DNA from: Pelagerythrobacter marinus
GTDB taxonomy: Bacteria > Pseudomonadota > Alphaproteobacteria > Sphingomonadales > Sphingomonadaceae
Reading direction: 5' to 3'
NCBI RefSeq assembly: GCF_009827515.1
Contig: NZ_WTYO01000001.1
Location: 415,501-479,500, forward strand
DNA length: 64,000 nt
Numbering within the stretch: the stretch's first letter is position 1; the number at the start of each line of letters is the position of its first letter. This document shows, piece after piece, positions 6,276-10,601 of this stretch. A program made the position numbers and the translations under genes. Under the pieces are notes generated by a model. The model made no database searches. It was given only the letters and a program-made list of their open reading frames with translations, and was not told the DNA's origin.

Positions 6276-7484
6276 TTGGACGTAAACACGCTATTCTGGG
6301 TCAACGCGATCGTCATGCTGGTCATGGCGTTCGGCTTCCTCGCCGCCTGGGCGCGGCGCCGGGGGGAGGCATGCTGGCCGGCGTGGATCGCCGCCAACCT
6401 CGTGCTCGCGTCCGCGCTGGTGCTCTATATCTTCGTCCCGCGGATCGCGCCCGACTGGGCGGTCCTGCCCAATGCCCTGCTGGTCCTGGGCTTCGGCCTG
6501 CGCTGGCGCGCCGCGCGCCTGTTCAGCGCCAGCCCGACGACCTGGATCGCGGTCTGGGCGCCGGCCTCCTTCGCGGCGCTGCTGTTCGCGCCCCCGCTGT
6601 CGCTCGGCGCGGGGACGGTCTTCGCCGCGATCAACCTGATCCTCGCCACCCAGGCCGGGGTCATCGCCGGGCAGTTCTGGCGCGCGCGCGAGCCGGGCTC
6701 GCTCTCCAGCTACGGCCTTGCCGCCGCCTATGCGATCATGGCCGCCTCGTTCGTGTCGCGCGTGATCGAGGGGCTCGCCTTCCTCGACAGCTTCACGACC
6801 TACCTTCCGCTCGACGGGACCTTGCCCTCGCACCTCGTGGTCGCGGTGATTCACACGTCCGCCAGCGGGGTCTTCGCGCTCTCGATCGCTTACGAGCGCA
6901 CGACCGTGCAGATGCGCGACGAGCGCGACAGCGCGCAGAAACGGGCGCAGAACTACAGCCGCCTGGCCCAGCGCGACGACCTGACCGGGCTGATGAACAG
7001 GCGCGCGATCGAATCGCGCTTCAGCGAGCTGGTGGCCGACGGCTTCTGCGCGATGGCGGTGCTCGACCTCGATCACTTCAAGCGGGTGAACGACCGCCAC
7101 GGCCACGCGCTGGGCGATGCCGCGCTCTGCGCCACGGCGCGCGCGCTCGCCCCCGACGACGATTGCCTCGCGGTGCGAATGGGGGGCGAGGAATTCGTCC
7201 TGCTGCTGCGCGGCGCCCATGCCCGCGAGCGGGCGGAATCGCGGCGTCAGGCGATCCCGCGGCGGATCGCGGCCGACGTGCCGGGCCTGCACGGCATCGT
7301 CACCGCCAGCATGGGCCTGATGGAGCTGCCCCGCGGGCTGACGGGGATCGCCTTTTCCGATCTCTATTCGGCGACCGACCGCCTGCTCTACGAGGCGAAG
7401 AACGGTGGCCGGAACCGGCTGGTGAGCGAAAAGCTGAGCCTGTTCCACGAACCGCCGCGGCGCGCCGGCACCGTCGCTGCCTGA
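6276..7484 (+). CDS. Membrane diguanylate cyclase (GGDEF domain)
   Basis: Predicted inner-membrane enzyme making cyclic di-GMP from two GTP. The first ~215 residues hold about six hydrophobic segments (a sensor of MASE type, ligand unknown), followed by a short charged linker rich in Arg, Asp and Gln and then the GGDEF domain. That domain has RDDLTGLMNRRA, LDLDHFKRVND, HGHALGD and the active-site loop MGGEEF, the permitted GGEEF variant. The RxxD inhibitory site normally nine residues before the loop is absent (Asp and Cys occupy those positions), so product inhibition may be lost. The start is a TTG at 6276-6278 preceded by GAAGG; the next option, ATG 6315, would cut the first membrane segment. 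Confidence 0.85.
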   Translation: MDVNTLFWVNAIVMLVMAFGFLAAWARRRGEACWPAWIAANLVLASALVLYIFVPRIAPDWAVLPNALLVLGFGLRWRAARLFSASPTTWIAVWAPASFAALLFAPPLSLGAGTVFAAINLILATQAGVIAGQFWRAREPGSLSSYGLAAAYAIMAASFVSRVIEGLAFLDSFTTYLPLDGTLPSHLVVAVIHTSASGVFALSIAYERTTVQMRDERDSAQKRAQNYSRLAQRDDLTGLMNRRAIESRFSELVADGFCAMAVLDLDHFKRVNDRHGHALGDAALCATARALAPDDDCLAVRMGGEEFVLLLRGAHARERAESRRQAIPRRIAADVPGLHGIVTASMGLMELPRGLTGIAFSDLYSATDRLLYEAKNGGRNRLVSEKLSLFHEPPRRAGTVAA

Positions 7485-7497
7485 CGGCGCGGGCGCG

Positions 7498-7935
7498 CTA
7501 GCCGGCGGCGTCCGGCCCGGTGCCGCCCATCAGCACGTTCATCACCGCCGTCGCCACCGGGCGCGTGCGATCGTCCTGCCAGGCCTCGACCTCGATATTC
7601 GCGTTGCGCCGCCCCAGCCGCAGCACGCGGCCGCGGGCATAGGTCGGCTTGCTCTTCGCGGCGCTGAGGAACTGGACGGTGACGTTGATCGGTTTCAGCC
7701 GGTGTTCGCGCCCCGCGCGGGCCAGCTCGGCGCGCAAGGCGGCATAGCCGGCGTTTTCCAGCAGGCCGCTGGTCGCCCCGCCGTGGAACACGGTCGGCCG
7801 CCCCTCCACGATCTCGCCGAACGGGATTGCCAGCACCGGGCTGCCGTCTTCCATCGCCGCGATCACGATGCCCAGCGACCGGGCATAGGCGGGCAGGTCG
7901 CGCTCCAGCGCGGTGATGTCGGGGTCGCGGCTCAC
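7498..7935 (-). CDS. PaaI-type hotdog thioesterase (second of a pair)
   Basis: Small cytosolic hotdog-fold protein (145 residues) expected to hydrolyse acyl-CoA or aryl-CoA thioesters. The family signature is visible as TVFHGGATSGLLENAG, where HGG and the following helix form the active site, then the long strand INVTVQFLSAAKSKP and ANIEVEAWQDD. The start is a GTG at 7933-7935, supported by GGAGG five bases upstream and by a four-base GTGA overlap with the preceding thioesterase gene. Its partner is a distinct family member, so the two could form a mixed complex or handle different substrates; this is inference. Confidence 0.8.
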   Translation of the reverse strand: MSRDPDITALERDLPAYARSLGIVIAAMEDGSPVLAIPFGEIVEGRPTVFHGGATSGLLENAGYAALRAELARAGREHRLKPINVTVQFLSAAKSKPTYARGRVLRLGRRNANIEVEAWQDDRTRPVATAVMNVLMGGTGPDAAG

Positions 7936-8405
7936 CGTTTCCTCCACGGAATGGACATGAACACGCCGGCCACGTGCGCCACCGGGTCGCCCGCGTCGCC
8001 ATCGTGCGCGACGCCGCGCACGAACGCGGCGGAGCGGGTCACGCGGTAGCATTCGGCGCGCCCGTTGACCGCCGCGCCCTCGCGCGCGGGGCGCATGTAG
8101 TCGACACGCAGGTCGAGCGTGGCGATCGCGCGGAATTCCCCCGTAGCGGTCCAGATCGCCATGCCCGAGGCCATGTCCATCAGGCTGACGATCGGCCCGG
8201 TGGCGAGCACGCCACTGCCGGTTTCCCCCAGCAGGTCCTCGCGCCAGGGCAGGGCCAGCTCGACCCAGTCCGCGCCGTGGGCGACATAGCGCAGGCCCAG
8301 CCAGCCGGGATGGCCGCGCCCGAGCATGAACGGGGCCGCGGTGGCGGGATCGAACGGTGGCAGGTCGTCGGCCATGCCCCACGCTCTAGGGCGCTGCCCG
8401 AACAT
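7932..8405 (-). CDS. PaaI-type hotdog thioesterase (first of a pair)
   Basis: 157-residue hotdog-fold thioesterase. Diagnostic stretches are GLRYVAHGADWVELALP at the first strand, GPIVSLMDMASGMAIW for the central helix that carries the active-site acidic residue, and LDLRVDYMRPA for the following strand. The HGG motif of the second gene is not present here (it reads TGPIV), so substrate or mechanism may differ. ATG 8403-8405 is chosen because GAGGAG stands six bases before it; an in-frame ATG at 8375 lacks such a site. The pair is transcribed away from the peptide cassette that starts at 8549, and the 143 bases between hold both promoters. Confidence 0.8.
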   Translation of the reverse strand: MFGQRPRAWGMADDLPPFDPATAAPFMLGRGHPGWLGLRYVAHGADWVELALPWREDLLGETGSGVLATGPIVSLMDMASGMAIWTATGEFRAIATLDLRVDYMRPAREGAAVNGRAECYRVTRSAAFVRGVAHDGDAGDPVAHVAGVFMSIPWRKR

Positions 8406-8548: not shown

Positions 8549-8716
8549 ATGGACTTTCCGAAAATCGACCTGGAATCGCTCCCGGTGCTCGACACCGCGG
8601 CCGGCATGTTCGGCAGCCTGTCCGACGCGGCGAACGCGGCGACGGACGACCGCGCGGTCATCATCATGATCTACCTCTACGAAACGACCCGGAACCTGCC
8701 CGACGTTCTCGTCTGA
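8549..8716 (+). CDS. 55-residue peptide, unknown function
   Basis: Short protein with no family I recognise. The N-terminal half is acidic and polar (MDFPKIDLESLPVLDTAAG), the middle is small-residue rich, and the last 18 residues are strongly hydrophobic then polar (VIIMIYLYETTRNLPDVLV-like). The upstream GAGGGGG is twelve bases from the ATG, which is loose, and longer in-frame extension upstream has non-coding character. It lies 11 bases before a 328-residue protein that is followed, with overlap, by a probable cupin protein; all three read the same way and look like one operon. A small peptide heading two uncharacterised proteins resembles the layout of peptide-modification loci, but nothing in the sequence proves that. 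Confidence 0.6.
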   Translation: MDFPKIDLESLPVLDTAAGMFGSLSDAANAATDDRAVIIMIYLYETTRNLPDVLV

Positions 8717-8727
8717 CCGGCGCGGAC

Positions 8728-9714
8728 ATGCGGATCGATCCGGCGATCGCGGCCCTGCGCGGCGATCCGGCGGCCGGGCAGCCGGCGCAGGCGGCGATCG
8801 AGCGGGCCCTTGCCGCGTGGCGGCGCGAGCCGGCAGTCGCGGCGGCCTGCGCCGAGCTGGCAGCCTATGGCGAAGGCGGGGCACTCGCGCGCTATCCGGC
8901 GCTCGCCGCCCTGGTCGAGGCGCGCGAGGCGGCGAATGCATTCGTCGATCCGCTGCTCGCGCGGGTGGCGGGTGTGCTGCGTCGCCACCCGCTGGCGCAG
9001 CTTCCGTTCCGGCACCAGGCAGGCGAGGGGGTGGCCCTGCTCCAGCTGGCGCGCGCCGGCCGGGCCACGCTGTCGCTGATCGGTTACGATCCCGCCGCGA
9101 CCCGGCTCGCCCCGCGCAGCGTGTGCTTCACCGATTCGCAGCGGCACGAGATATGCCTTGCCGGACGCGGCCGGGCGCAGCGGGTGACGCTCGCCGCGCC
9201 CACGCGGGGCGGGGCCGGGCTGGCGCTTGCCGACGTCGCGCTCGCGCCCGGGACGCGGATGGATTTCGCGGGCGCGCGGGCGACCAAGATCGTGCGCCGG
9301 GTGCAGCGCAGCGTGGTCCTGCTGCGGCTAACGCGGGTGGCGCGCGTGCCCGGCGAAAGCCGCGAATATCGCCTGTCCGACGGGGCCCTGCTCCACCGGG
9401 CGGCAGGCACGGCGCGCGAGAGCCGGCGCGAGCTGGCGCTGGCCCTGCTGGGCAGGATGGGGCGCGCGGACGCGCTGCCGCTGATGCTCGATGCCGCGCG
9501 CAGCGGCAGCGACAGCGCGCGCTGGCAGGCGCTGCGCGAATGCCTGGCGCTCGACAGCGGCGCCGGGTTCGCCGCGCTCGCCCGGACCGCCCGCGACCCG
9601 GCCGACCCGCTGGCCGGCCCGGCGGCGGCGCTGCGCGACGACCTGCTTGCCCGCCACCCGGCCCTGGCCGCGGCGGAGGGCGAGGGGGGAGGGGATCGGT
9701 GCCCCGCGCGCTGA
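8728..9714 (+). CDS. Unknown protein, cupin-like core plus helical repeats (lacks metal His)
   Basis: 328 residues, no family recognised. I read three parts: an Ala/Leu/Arg-rich helical region (1-~95), a beta-rich middle (~95-225) and a helical, HEAT-like tail (~228-315). The middle can be laid against the next protein: LPFRHQ against LPHDHN, LIGYDPAAT against YEYDHAAL, and LAPGTRMDF...VVLLRLTRV against LSPGRLLHY...LSVSLNVV. This suggests a diverged paralogue that has lost most candidate metal-binding histidines. It starts 11 bases after the 55-residue peptide and overlaps the next gene by 16 bases. A role as partner or scaffold for the second protein is inference. Confidence 0.7.
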   Translation: MRIDPAIAALRGDPAAGQPAQAAIERALAAWRREPAVAAACAELAAYGEGGALARYPALAALVEAREAANAFVDPLLARVAGVLRRHPLAQLPFRHQAGEGVALLQLARAGRATLSLIGYDPAATRLAPRSVCFTDSQRHEICLAGRGRAQRVTLAAPTRGGAGLALADVALAPGTRMDFAGARATKIVRRVQRSVVLLRLTRVARVPGESREYRLSDGALLHRAAGTARESRRELALALLGRMGRADALPLMLDAARSGSDSARWQALRECLALDSGAGFAALARTARDPADPLAGPAAALRDDLLARHPALAAAEGEGGGDRCPAR

Positions 9715-10601
9715 CCGCCCCGGCCGGCGCGCCCTGTTCGCTGGAGGAAGCGCGCGACGCGCTGTGCGCGCGCGGTTTCGACCCGCGCGACGAAGCCAGC
9801 CTGCACCACGCGGCCGGGTGGCTCGCGCGGCTCGGCTGCAACCGCGATTTCCTCGGCGACCTGCTGGTGGAACGGCTTTCGACGCGCGGCGACGAGGACG
9901 CGGGGGCGGCCGGCTACGGCCCCCAGGCGATCATGCTGTCCGGCACGCAGGCGGGGCATTTCCTGCGCGCCAACATCTGGCCCGCGGCCGGCGACCATGC
10001 CTGCCGCACCAGCGGCCGGCACAGCTTCGTCTACGACCTGCCGCACGATCACAATTTCGATTTTCTCACGGTCGGCTATTTCGGCCCCGGCTATCGCAGC
10101 GACTACTACGAATACGATCATGCCGCGCTCGCCGGCTGGCGCGGGGAACGGGCCGGGCTGCGGTTCGTCGAACGCAGCGCGCTGTCGCCCGGCCGGCTGC
10201 TCCACTACCGCGCGCACCGCGACGTCCACCGCCAGTTGCCGCCGGCGAGCCTGTCGGTCTCGCTCAACGTGGTTGCCGCCGATCCCGCCGCGGCCTGGTT
10301 CGACCAGTACGCCTTCGACCTGGAGGAGGACCGGATCGGCCGCGTGCTGAACCCGGGCGCGAGCGAGGCCTTCCTGCACCTCGCGGTCGGGCTGGGCAGC
10401 GGGGAGGCGGTCGAGCTGGCCCGGTGGATCGGGCACGGCCACCCGAGCGATCGCCTGCGGCTGGCCAGTTTCGCGGCGCGCGCCGCATCGGCCGGATCGG
10501 CCGAGGGGGCCGAGCGCGTCTGGCGCGAGGCGGAAGGCGCGGGCAGCCGGCTGGTGCGGGCGGAGGCGGCGCGCCGGCGCGCGGCCGTTGCGGCAGGCTA
10601 G
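9699..10601 (+). CDS. Cupin-like protein of unknown function
   Basis: 300 residues from a GTG start at 9699-9701, which is preceded by a GGGGGGAGGGG run acting as ribosome binding site. The centre resembles a cupin barrel: LPHDHNFDFLTVGYFGPG (residues 114-131) resembles the first metal-binding motif with its H-x-H, and LSPGRLLHYRAHRDVHRQ (162-179) resembles the second, P-G-x3-H and a closing histidine. A helical tail follows. A metal-dependent oxygenase, isomerase or non-catalytic binder would all fit; the sequence does not decide. It shares architecture with the preceding 328-residue protein. Its TAG and the ruvX stop on the other strand share the palindrome CTAG at 10598-10601. Confidence 0.72.
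   Translation: MPRALTAPAGAPCSLEEARDALCARGFDPRDEASLHHAAGWLARLGCNRDFLGDLLVERLSTRGDEDAGAAGYGPQAIMLSGTQAGHFLRANIWPAAGDHACRTSGRHSFVYDLPHDHNFDFLTVGYFGPGYRSDYYEYDHAALAGWRGERAGLRFVERSALSPGRLLHYRAHRDVHRQLPPASLSVSLNVVAADPAAAWFDQYAFDLEEDRIGRVLNPGASEAFLHLAVGLGSGEAVELARWIGHGHPSDRLRLASFAARAASAGSAEGAERVWREAEGAGSRLVRAEAARRRAAVAAG

Follow-up and report, generated by a model that had tools for sequence, protein, structure and literature searches.

The peptide, pA and pB genes and their surroundings

The locus lies in a 64,000-nucleotide stretch of Pelagerythrobacter marinus DNA (hereafter, the window), where a gene for a 55-residue peptide is followed, after a gap of 11 nt, by the genes for two larger proteins, here called pA and pB. 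Together they form a compact unit on the + strand, in which the pA and pB reading frames overlap by 16 nt in the window copy. The coordinates, lengths, strands, 11-base gap and pA/pB overlap agree with those of the first-pass annotation. The unit comprises the following features.

8549..8716, + strand: precursor-like peptide gene, 55 residues, ATG start, with a leader-like N-terminal part MDFPKIDLESLPVLDTAAGMFGS, a variable linker and a hydrophobic C-terminal segment
8651..8686, + strand: peptide residues 35 to 46, RAVIIMIYLYET, a Val/Ile/Met/Tyr-rich hydrophobic segment, conserved by column counts, which may be the target or core
8728..9714, + strand: pA, 328 residues, pseudoenzyme paralogue, with a helical N-terminus (5-86), a cupin barrel (96-225) and HEAT-like helices (229-319), and no conserved set of metal histidines
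9699..10601, + strand: pB, 300 residues, GTG start, putative three-histidine metal enzyme, with a thiol-dioxygenase fold (residues 11-219) and HEAT-like C-terminal helices (222-299)
10044..10052, + strand: codons of pB H116-D117-H118, containing the first two putative metal ligands (H116 and H118, each 141/141)
10227..10229, + strand: codon of pB H177, the third putative metal ligand (140/141), which aligns with the third CDO histidine

The trio is bounded upstream by divergent thioesterase (4HBT) ORFs and downstream by a convergent RuvX/YqgF ORF, the end of which is at 10598, which bears out the earlier description of a unit set apart by divergent and convergent genes. Further out, GGDEF and amidohydrolase ORFs are found on one side, and ORFs for DUF3089, an AI-2E-family permease, a signal peptidase S26 and ACPS on the other. 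The claim that neither exporter nor protease stands beside the trio holds for the immediate neighbors, the AI-2E-family permease and the signal peptidase being located 1.6 kb and 2.7 kb downstream on the opposite strand, but it does not extend to some distant relatives, which do have exporters (see below). The thioesterase ORF at 7498-8382 and the YqgF ORF had tblastn matches at 62 and 73, respectively, of 100 fetched loci, and hence, within the lineage of the window, the trio tends to occupy the same chromosomal site.

Searches of Pfam, NCBIfam and PADLOC with the window trio gave nothing over the cut-off, leaving a sub-threshold HEAT_2 match on pA and one chance-level NCBIfam row on pB. No known RiPP family was matched in the Pfam and NCBIfam searches, and PDB sequence searches with the window proteins gave no convincing match. 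An anti-phage defense system was rejected as an identity on the basis of 0 PADLOC families for all three proteins. We found no description of the trio in the open-access literature searched.

Predicted folds and the putative metal site

The AlphaFold model of pB was confident (pLDDT 91.6), and its residues 11-219 matched thiol dioxygenases, namely 4tlf_B (Z 13.5, rmsd 3.3, 161 aligned residues), human CDO (Z 12.8), PCO4 (Z 11.7) and ADO (Z 10.9). From the model, pB is predicted to be a CDO-type cupin barrel with a helical tail. In common with thiol dioxygenases (CDO, 3-mercaptopropionate dioxygenase, PCO and ADO; CDO_I), pB has a predicted helical N-terminus joined to a cupin barrel, and an HxH motif with a third histidine later in the sequence. 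Unlike the thiol dioxygenases, the trio adds a HEAT-like tail, a dead paralogue and a peptide partner that lacks Cys in 90/97 unique sequences. No match of pB to the CDO_I family was detected, and profile alignment with six natural CDO_I proteins was weak (P 0.047, 0.012 and 0.17), the value of 0.17 coming from a deeper pB alignment that gave no improvement on the other two. The link between pB and CDO therefore rests on predicted structure.

In the same weak profile alignments, the HDH motif and the later histidine of pB coincide with the CDO ligands. The first-pass annotation had placed these motifs correctly, at 116-118 and ending at H177. Among the 141 non-redundant pB sequences, H116 (141), H118 (141) and H177 (140) are accompanied by D175 (141), S186 (141), S188 (139) and N190 (140), and the near-invariant histidines, as seen in the alignment, point to a preserved metal site. 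An Arg residue and a Ser-His-Tyr set bind and process the thiol substrate of CDO. By the weak profile alignment, the Ser-His-Tyr residues correspond to S188-N190-V192 of pB and the substrate Arg to P75; position 192 is Met in 102/141 sequences, with Tyr absent from the residues listed there, and position 75 is Pro in 101/141. Because the aligned positions P75, N190 and 192 differ, the Arg, His and Tyr of CDO appear to have been lost, as far as the weak alignment allows. A free-cysteine dioxygenase is not favored as the identity of pB; a free thiol may yet be its substrate.

The AlphaFold model of pA was likewise confident (pLDDT 94.2), and residues ~30-225 matched ADO, PCO and CDO with a best Z of 10.4 (tied rows; rmsd 3.4 over 162 residues). 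The models thus place the same cupin barrel in pA and pB, as the first-pass annotation had expected, and both proteins are predicted to contain a thiol-dioxygenase-type barrel with a helical tail. No relation of pA to CDO was found by profile comparison. When deep alignments (139 pA and 141 pB sequences) were compared with hhalign, pA 165-307 was related to pB 155-298 at E 2.3e-7; with smaller alignments, the comparison was not significant (E 0.089). Judged by the deeper profile comparison, pA and pB are paralogues. HEAT_2 matched 31/54 pA members (best 6.9e-5) and 2/56 pB members; in the Alteromonas copy, the HEAT_2 match was over the cut-off for pA and under the cut-off for pB.

The best histidine column of pA is H96, which is His in 75/139 sequences, and pA has no set comparable to that of pB. 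The proposal of an active plus inactive pair is supported by the near-invariant histidines of the one protein and by the other having no conserved set. The proposal that FRH in pA takes the place of HDH in pB fared less well: FRH, at residues 94-96, precedes the first barrel strand, whereas HDH follows an earlier strand, and the differing strand order suggests that the two motifs probably do not correspond. The conclusion that the metal histidines are missing from pA stands all the same.

Conservation of the peptide beside pA and pB

Relatives of pB were detected in 23/98 related genomes and in 105/298 sampled genomes of the family of the window, and were sparse beyond the family, with 5/385 genomes of the class, 15/398 of the phylum, and 2/197 and 5/200 genomes of two further orders. 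A scan of a named genome collection gave 292 matching stretches, of which the best 80 of 292 were kept; the genome samples (relatives, family, class, phylum, orders and collection) overlap. The pB matches in G524, G569, G598, G632 and G669 each carry one internal stop codon and are either decaying copies or assembly errors.

The first-pass annotation had named the absence of the peptide next to the pair in relatives as a result that would count against its reading. A profile of the peptide detected a homologue upstream of pB in 106/108 pB loci, a count in which ~20 loci had also gone into the making of the profile and some genomes are present twice. The two loci lacking a match are L036, where the contig is truncated, and L108, with a candidate only; the match in L024 was weak (E 1e-3). 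The start of a full pA frame was found near the peptide in 102 loci, and no full pA frame was found in L042, L051, L068 and L073. The spacing of the trio is tight: the gap from the peptide stop to the pA start is 4-30 nt, and the pA/pB overlap is 1-16 nt, each in 94/102 loci. The peptide also tracks pB across genomes, given that in 59 relatives the profile matched 16 genomes, comprising 15 pB carriers and G023. Over 15 pairs drawn from six related loci, dN/dS, which was run on the peptide, pA and pB frames alone, was 0.13-0.35 for the peptide, 0.20-0.49 for pA and 0.14-0.36 for pB; the peptide values indicate, at the sequence level, that it is under purifying selection.

The exception, G023 (L202, G023:C22:10000-22000), carries a peptide remnant at ~6286-6393 on the minus strand, directly before a YqgF-like gene. 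No pA or pB match was found within the 12-kb region, in an assembly that is 85% complete. In this one case, DDRIVILMAYVYE is kept and the leader-like front is eroded and degenerate.

A further 56 copies were examined with the same profile, which was built in part from these loci, so that the E-values obtained there are optimistic. Five of the 56 (L139, L140, L141, L184 and L198) had no peptide match below E 1e-3; L184 is cut by a contig end, and L139 and L140 have candidate peptides found by eye. The full pA frame is missing in three (L176, L184 and L198). A mobile element as the carrier of the trio was considered and rejected, there being no phage match and 2 plasmid records. On a Vibrio plasmid (L204, NZ_CP080241.1, 6997-8417), a short pA/pB-like pair of ORFs is flanked by a recombinase gene on one side and restriction-modification genes on the other, with no recognizable peptide beside it.

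Among 97 unique peptide sequences, the near-constant columns are P12 (96), G22 (95), L14 (92), D34 (90), Y44 (88) and F21 (84), and the sequences additionally share a Val/Ile/Met stretch. The N-terminus of the window peptide is acidic, as had been noted, but only mildly, its first 25 residues including 4 D/E against 1 K/R/H. When the peptide is set against 45 background ORFs of similar length from the window, one of them scores as high or higher on each of the three composition measures; composition alone is therefore no proof, and it is conservation that carries the case for the peptide. Cys is absent from the window peptide and from 90/97 unique peptides, and present in 7/97. With most peptides lacking Cys, classical thiol oxygenation of the peptide is unlikely, and the residues that the sequences would commonly offer for modification are Val, Ile, Met and Tyr. 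The peptide of L145 carries two Cys residues, and the L145 pB is the sole one of the 141 in which Arg replaces the third histidine.

Across many distant loci, a conserved leader-like front is combined with a variable linker and end; within the Erythrobacteraceae, the core is conserved too. The front of many distant peptides retains an 'LPxL...G..GS'-like pattern, of which the L139, L140 and L142 peptides show little, and the end is a freer Val/Ile-rich run. In several distant peptides, an EVGG, EVAG or ETGG hinge, a candidate double-Gly-type site, is present, often before the Val/Ile-rich run. Very aliphatic candidate ends are GVFGVIVVAVVIFL (L142) and TLAVAIGVAVGVGVAVGLGVGIAV (L212; not matched by the peptide profile). 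Two candidate peptide genes precede the second pA/pB pair of L148, and also the pair in L203 (by eye) and in L212. The two candidate precursor genes of L212 (9049-9954, minus strand) are near-identical, carry a Gly/Val/Ala-rich repeat and a poly-Pro or poly-Gly tail, and look like a recent duplication. The peptide profile gave no match at E 0.01 to the candidate peptides of L212-L216, L139 and L140, which were picked by eye; the L214 and L215 candidates do not convince on visual inspection either.

Linked exporters and regulators, and what the trio may do

Four distant loci, L142, L148, L203 and L212, lie near HlyD, MacB/FtsX, ABC or C39-protease exporter genes. In L142, a Peptidase_C39-ABC exporter and HlyD are divergent from the peptide, which has a VSAGA site. 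In L148, two tandem trios are followed by HlyD, an ABC ATPase, FtsX, an FtsX-like ORF and an ABC exporter. L203, on a plasmid of Alteromonas stellipolaris (CP013927.1, 60122-76868), consists of HlyD, a MacB-type ATPase and permease, two small candidate peptide ORFs, pA, pB, an ABC ATPase and an ABC-2 permease; apart from the ABC ATPase, the cluster is annotated as hypothetical, and it is a good experimental target. In L212, MacB/FtsX permeases and an ABC-2 pair are located upstream of the candidate precursors on the same strand, with one opposite-strand ORF between. The C39-ABC and HlyD genes of L142, and the MacB/FtsX and ABC-2 genes of L203 and L212, resemble those of double-glycine (C39) bacteriocin and microcin-type export loci. 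In contrast to such loci, no HlyD-, MacB-, ABC- or C39-type exporter genes were found alongside the window copy, and the L142 and L148 exporters used as queries had no match in the 80 near loci (L025-L104), some of which are short, and divergent exporters could escape this search. Generic ABC ATPase matches occur some kb away in L166, L179 and L192.

No C39 protease match was found in the genome of the window. C39 proteases were matched in 16/40 trio genomes, 15 of them over the cut-off, and the matches were divided between 5/10 genomes with EVGG/EVAG/ETGG-hinge peptides and 11/30 others. With these proportions, C39 processing is not general, and we rejected it as a general route for the peptide.

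A second kind of neighbor is a winged-helix protein encoded immediately downstream of pB, at a gap of -14 to 72 nt, in 15/56 further copies (L146, L147, L149, L152, L153, L158, L166, L167, L168, L178, L181, L182, L186, L187 and L190). Ten of these proteins were scanned and all matched Trans_reg_C (Pfam), with no receiver-domain match at E 0.001. The count of 15/56 leaves out a response-regulator-like ORF that lies 194 nt away in L180. The exporter-linked and regulator-linked versions point to different roles of the product, and the window copy has neither adjoining it.

We consider it probable that the locus is of a minimal RiPP type, with pB as the enzyme that modifies the peptide and the pseudoenzyme pA as its helper. 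The metal, the oxygen chemistry, the peptide as substrate, the pairing, the leader role and the function, all of which we infer, would fit together as follows. The 55-residue peptide would be the precursor, its conserved front the leader, and its hydrophobic Val/Ile/Met/Tyr segment would be, or contain, the modified part. pB would be a non-heme iron(II) enzyme with the cysteine-dioxygenase fold and a three-histidine site; it would no longer be active on free thiols and would most likely add oxygen to, or desaturate, peptide side chains. pA would be its catalytically dead paralogue, pairing with pB and probably holding the leader or positioning the peptide. The product may be exported in some relatives, through HlyD/MacB or C39-ABC systems, where self-protection by the ABC-2 pair might be needed; in the Erythrobacteraceae, it may act inside the cell or exit by an unlinked route.

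The tracking of pB by the peptide, the tight spacing of the trio and the erosion of the leader-like front at G023, a site with no pA or pB match, argue for this RiPP reading. The likeness to ribosomal-peptide modification loci, already remarked upon in the first-pass annotation, is strengthened by distant loci in which candidate precursors occur in tandem, exporter genes are linked or a candidate double-Gly-type hinge is seen. On the other side, conservation of the C-terminal segment is strong among the Erythrobacteraceae, and the segment is in this respect less like the diversifying core of a natural product.

Two described systems offer comparisons. MNIO enzymes rely on partner proteins for substrate handling (PMC12257519), and MNIO (DUF692) RiPP loci, with their small precursor, iron enzyme and partner protein, resemble the trio as proposed here. 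The trio differs from MNIO loci in that its enzyme is a cupin rather than a TIM barrel and the partner role falls to an enzyme paralogue, pA, in place of an RRE protein; no Pfam match of the trio to the TIM-barrel DUF692 (MNIO) domain was found, and the models show cupins instead. The second system is PbsQ of the pbs RiPP cluster, a cupin-like hydroxylase of a RiPP residue, ornithine (PMC12257519). By that description, PbsQ is a cupin-fold protein acting on a ribosomal peptide, as we propose for pB, but its reaction is one tailoring step within a larger cluster.

One could envision three alternatives to the modification of a precursor by pB and pA. Plant cysteine oxidases and ADO act on protein N-termini, and one scenario is an oxygen- or metal-sensing circuit, in which the pB-modified peptide is only a signal, with gene expression under the control of the peptide, or of the pA/pB complex, via the linked winged-helix protein. 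The presence of PCO and ADO among the fold neighbors, the winged-helix gene right after pB in some of the further copies, and an Erythrobacteraceae version that is strongly conserved, in a conserved place and with no linked exporter found would all suit such a circuit. However, most of the 56 copies, and that of the window, are without a linked regulator, and the exporter and ABC-2 neighbors of the four distant loci better fit a secreted product; we regard the circuit as unlikely.

Another scenario is that pB is a metal-dependent isomerase or epimerase rather than an oxygenase, and would generate, for example, D-Val or D-allo-Ile in the aliphatic stretch. The Val/Ile-rich C-terminal segments recall, by analogy, those of epipeptides, and isomerases are common among cupins, but the closest folds to the pB model are oxygen-using thiol dioxygenases, which makes this scenario improbable. 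Equally hard to credit is an unmodified, bacteriocin-like or toxic hydrophobic peptide for which pA and pB form a binding or immunity complex with no catalysis: the hydrophobic peptide and the exporter and ABC-2 genes near some loci are in keeping with it, but not the three histidines that are near-invariant over 141 diverse pB sequences and suggest a preserved metal site, the leader-like front, or the strongly conserved, non-diversifying peptide of the Erythrobacteraceae.

Returning to the modification of the peptide by pB with the help of pA, we put forward, tentatively, the narrower proposal that the trio represents a new RiPP class, in which an enzyme-pseudoenzyme pair of the thiol-dioxygenase fold acts on a Cys-free peptide and oxidizes its aliphatic or aromatic residues. 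In the Erythrobacteraceae, it would have turned into a conserved, exporter-less chromosomal function, with an intracellular peptide cofactor or signal as product, whereas distant relatives would have retained a secreted product. We found no description of a modifying pair of this fold in a RiPP role in the open-access literature searched. If the proposal is true, thiol-dioxygenase-fold enzymes have been recruited, and paired with a dead partner, for the modification of gene-encoded peptides. RiPP chemistry would then gain an enzyme family, and two protein families to which we could assign no Pfam or NCBIfam entry would acquire a function. With 292 pB relatives in a single scan, there would also be hundreds of candidate precursor/enzyme pairs with which to probe a three-histidine iron site that works without a thiol substrate.
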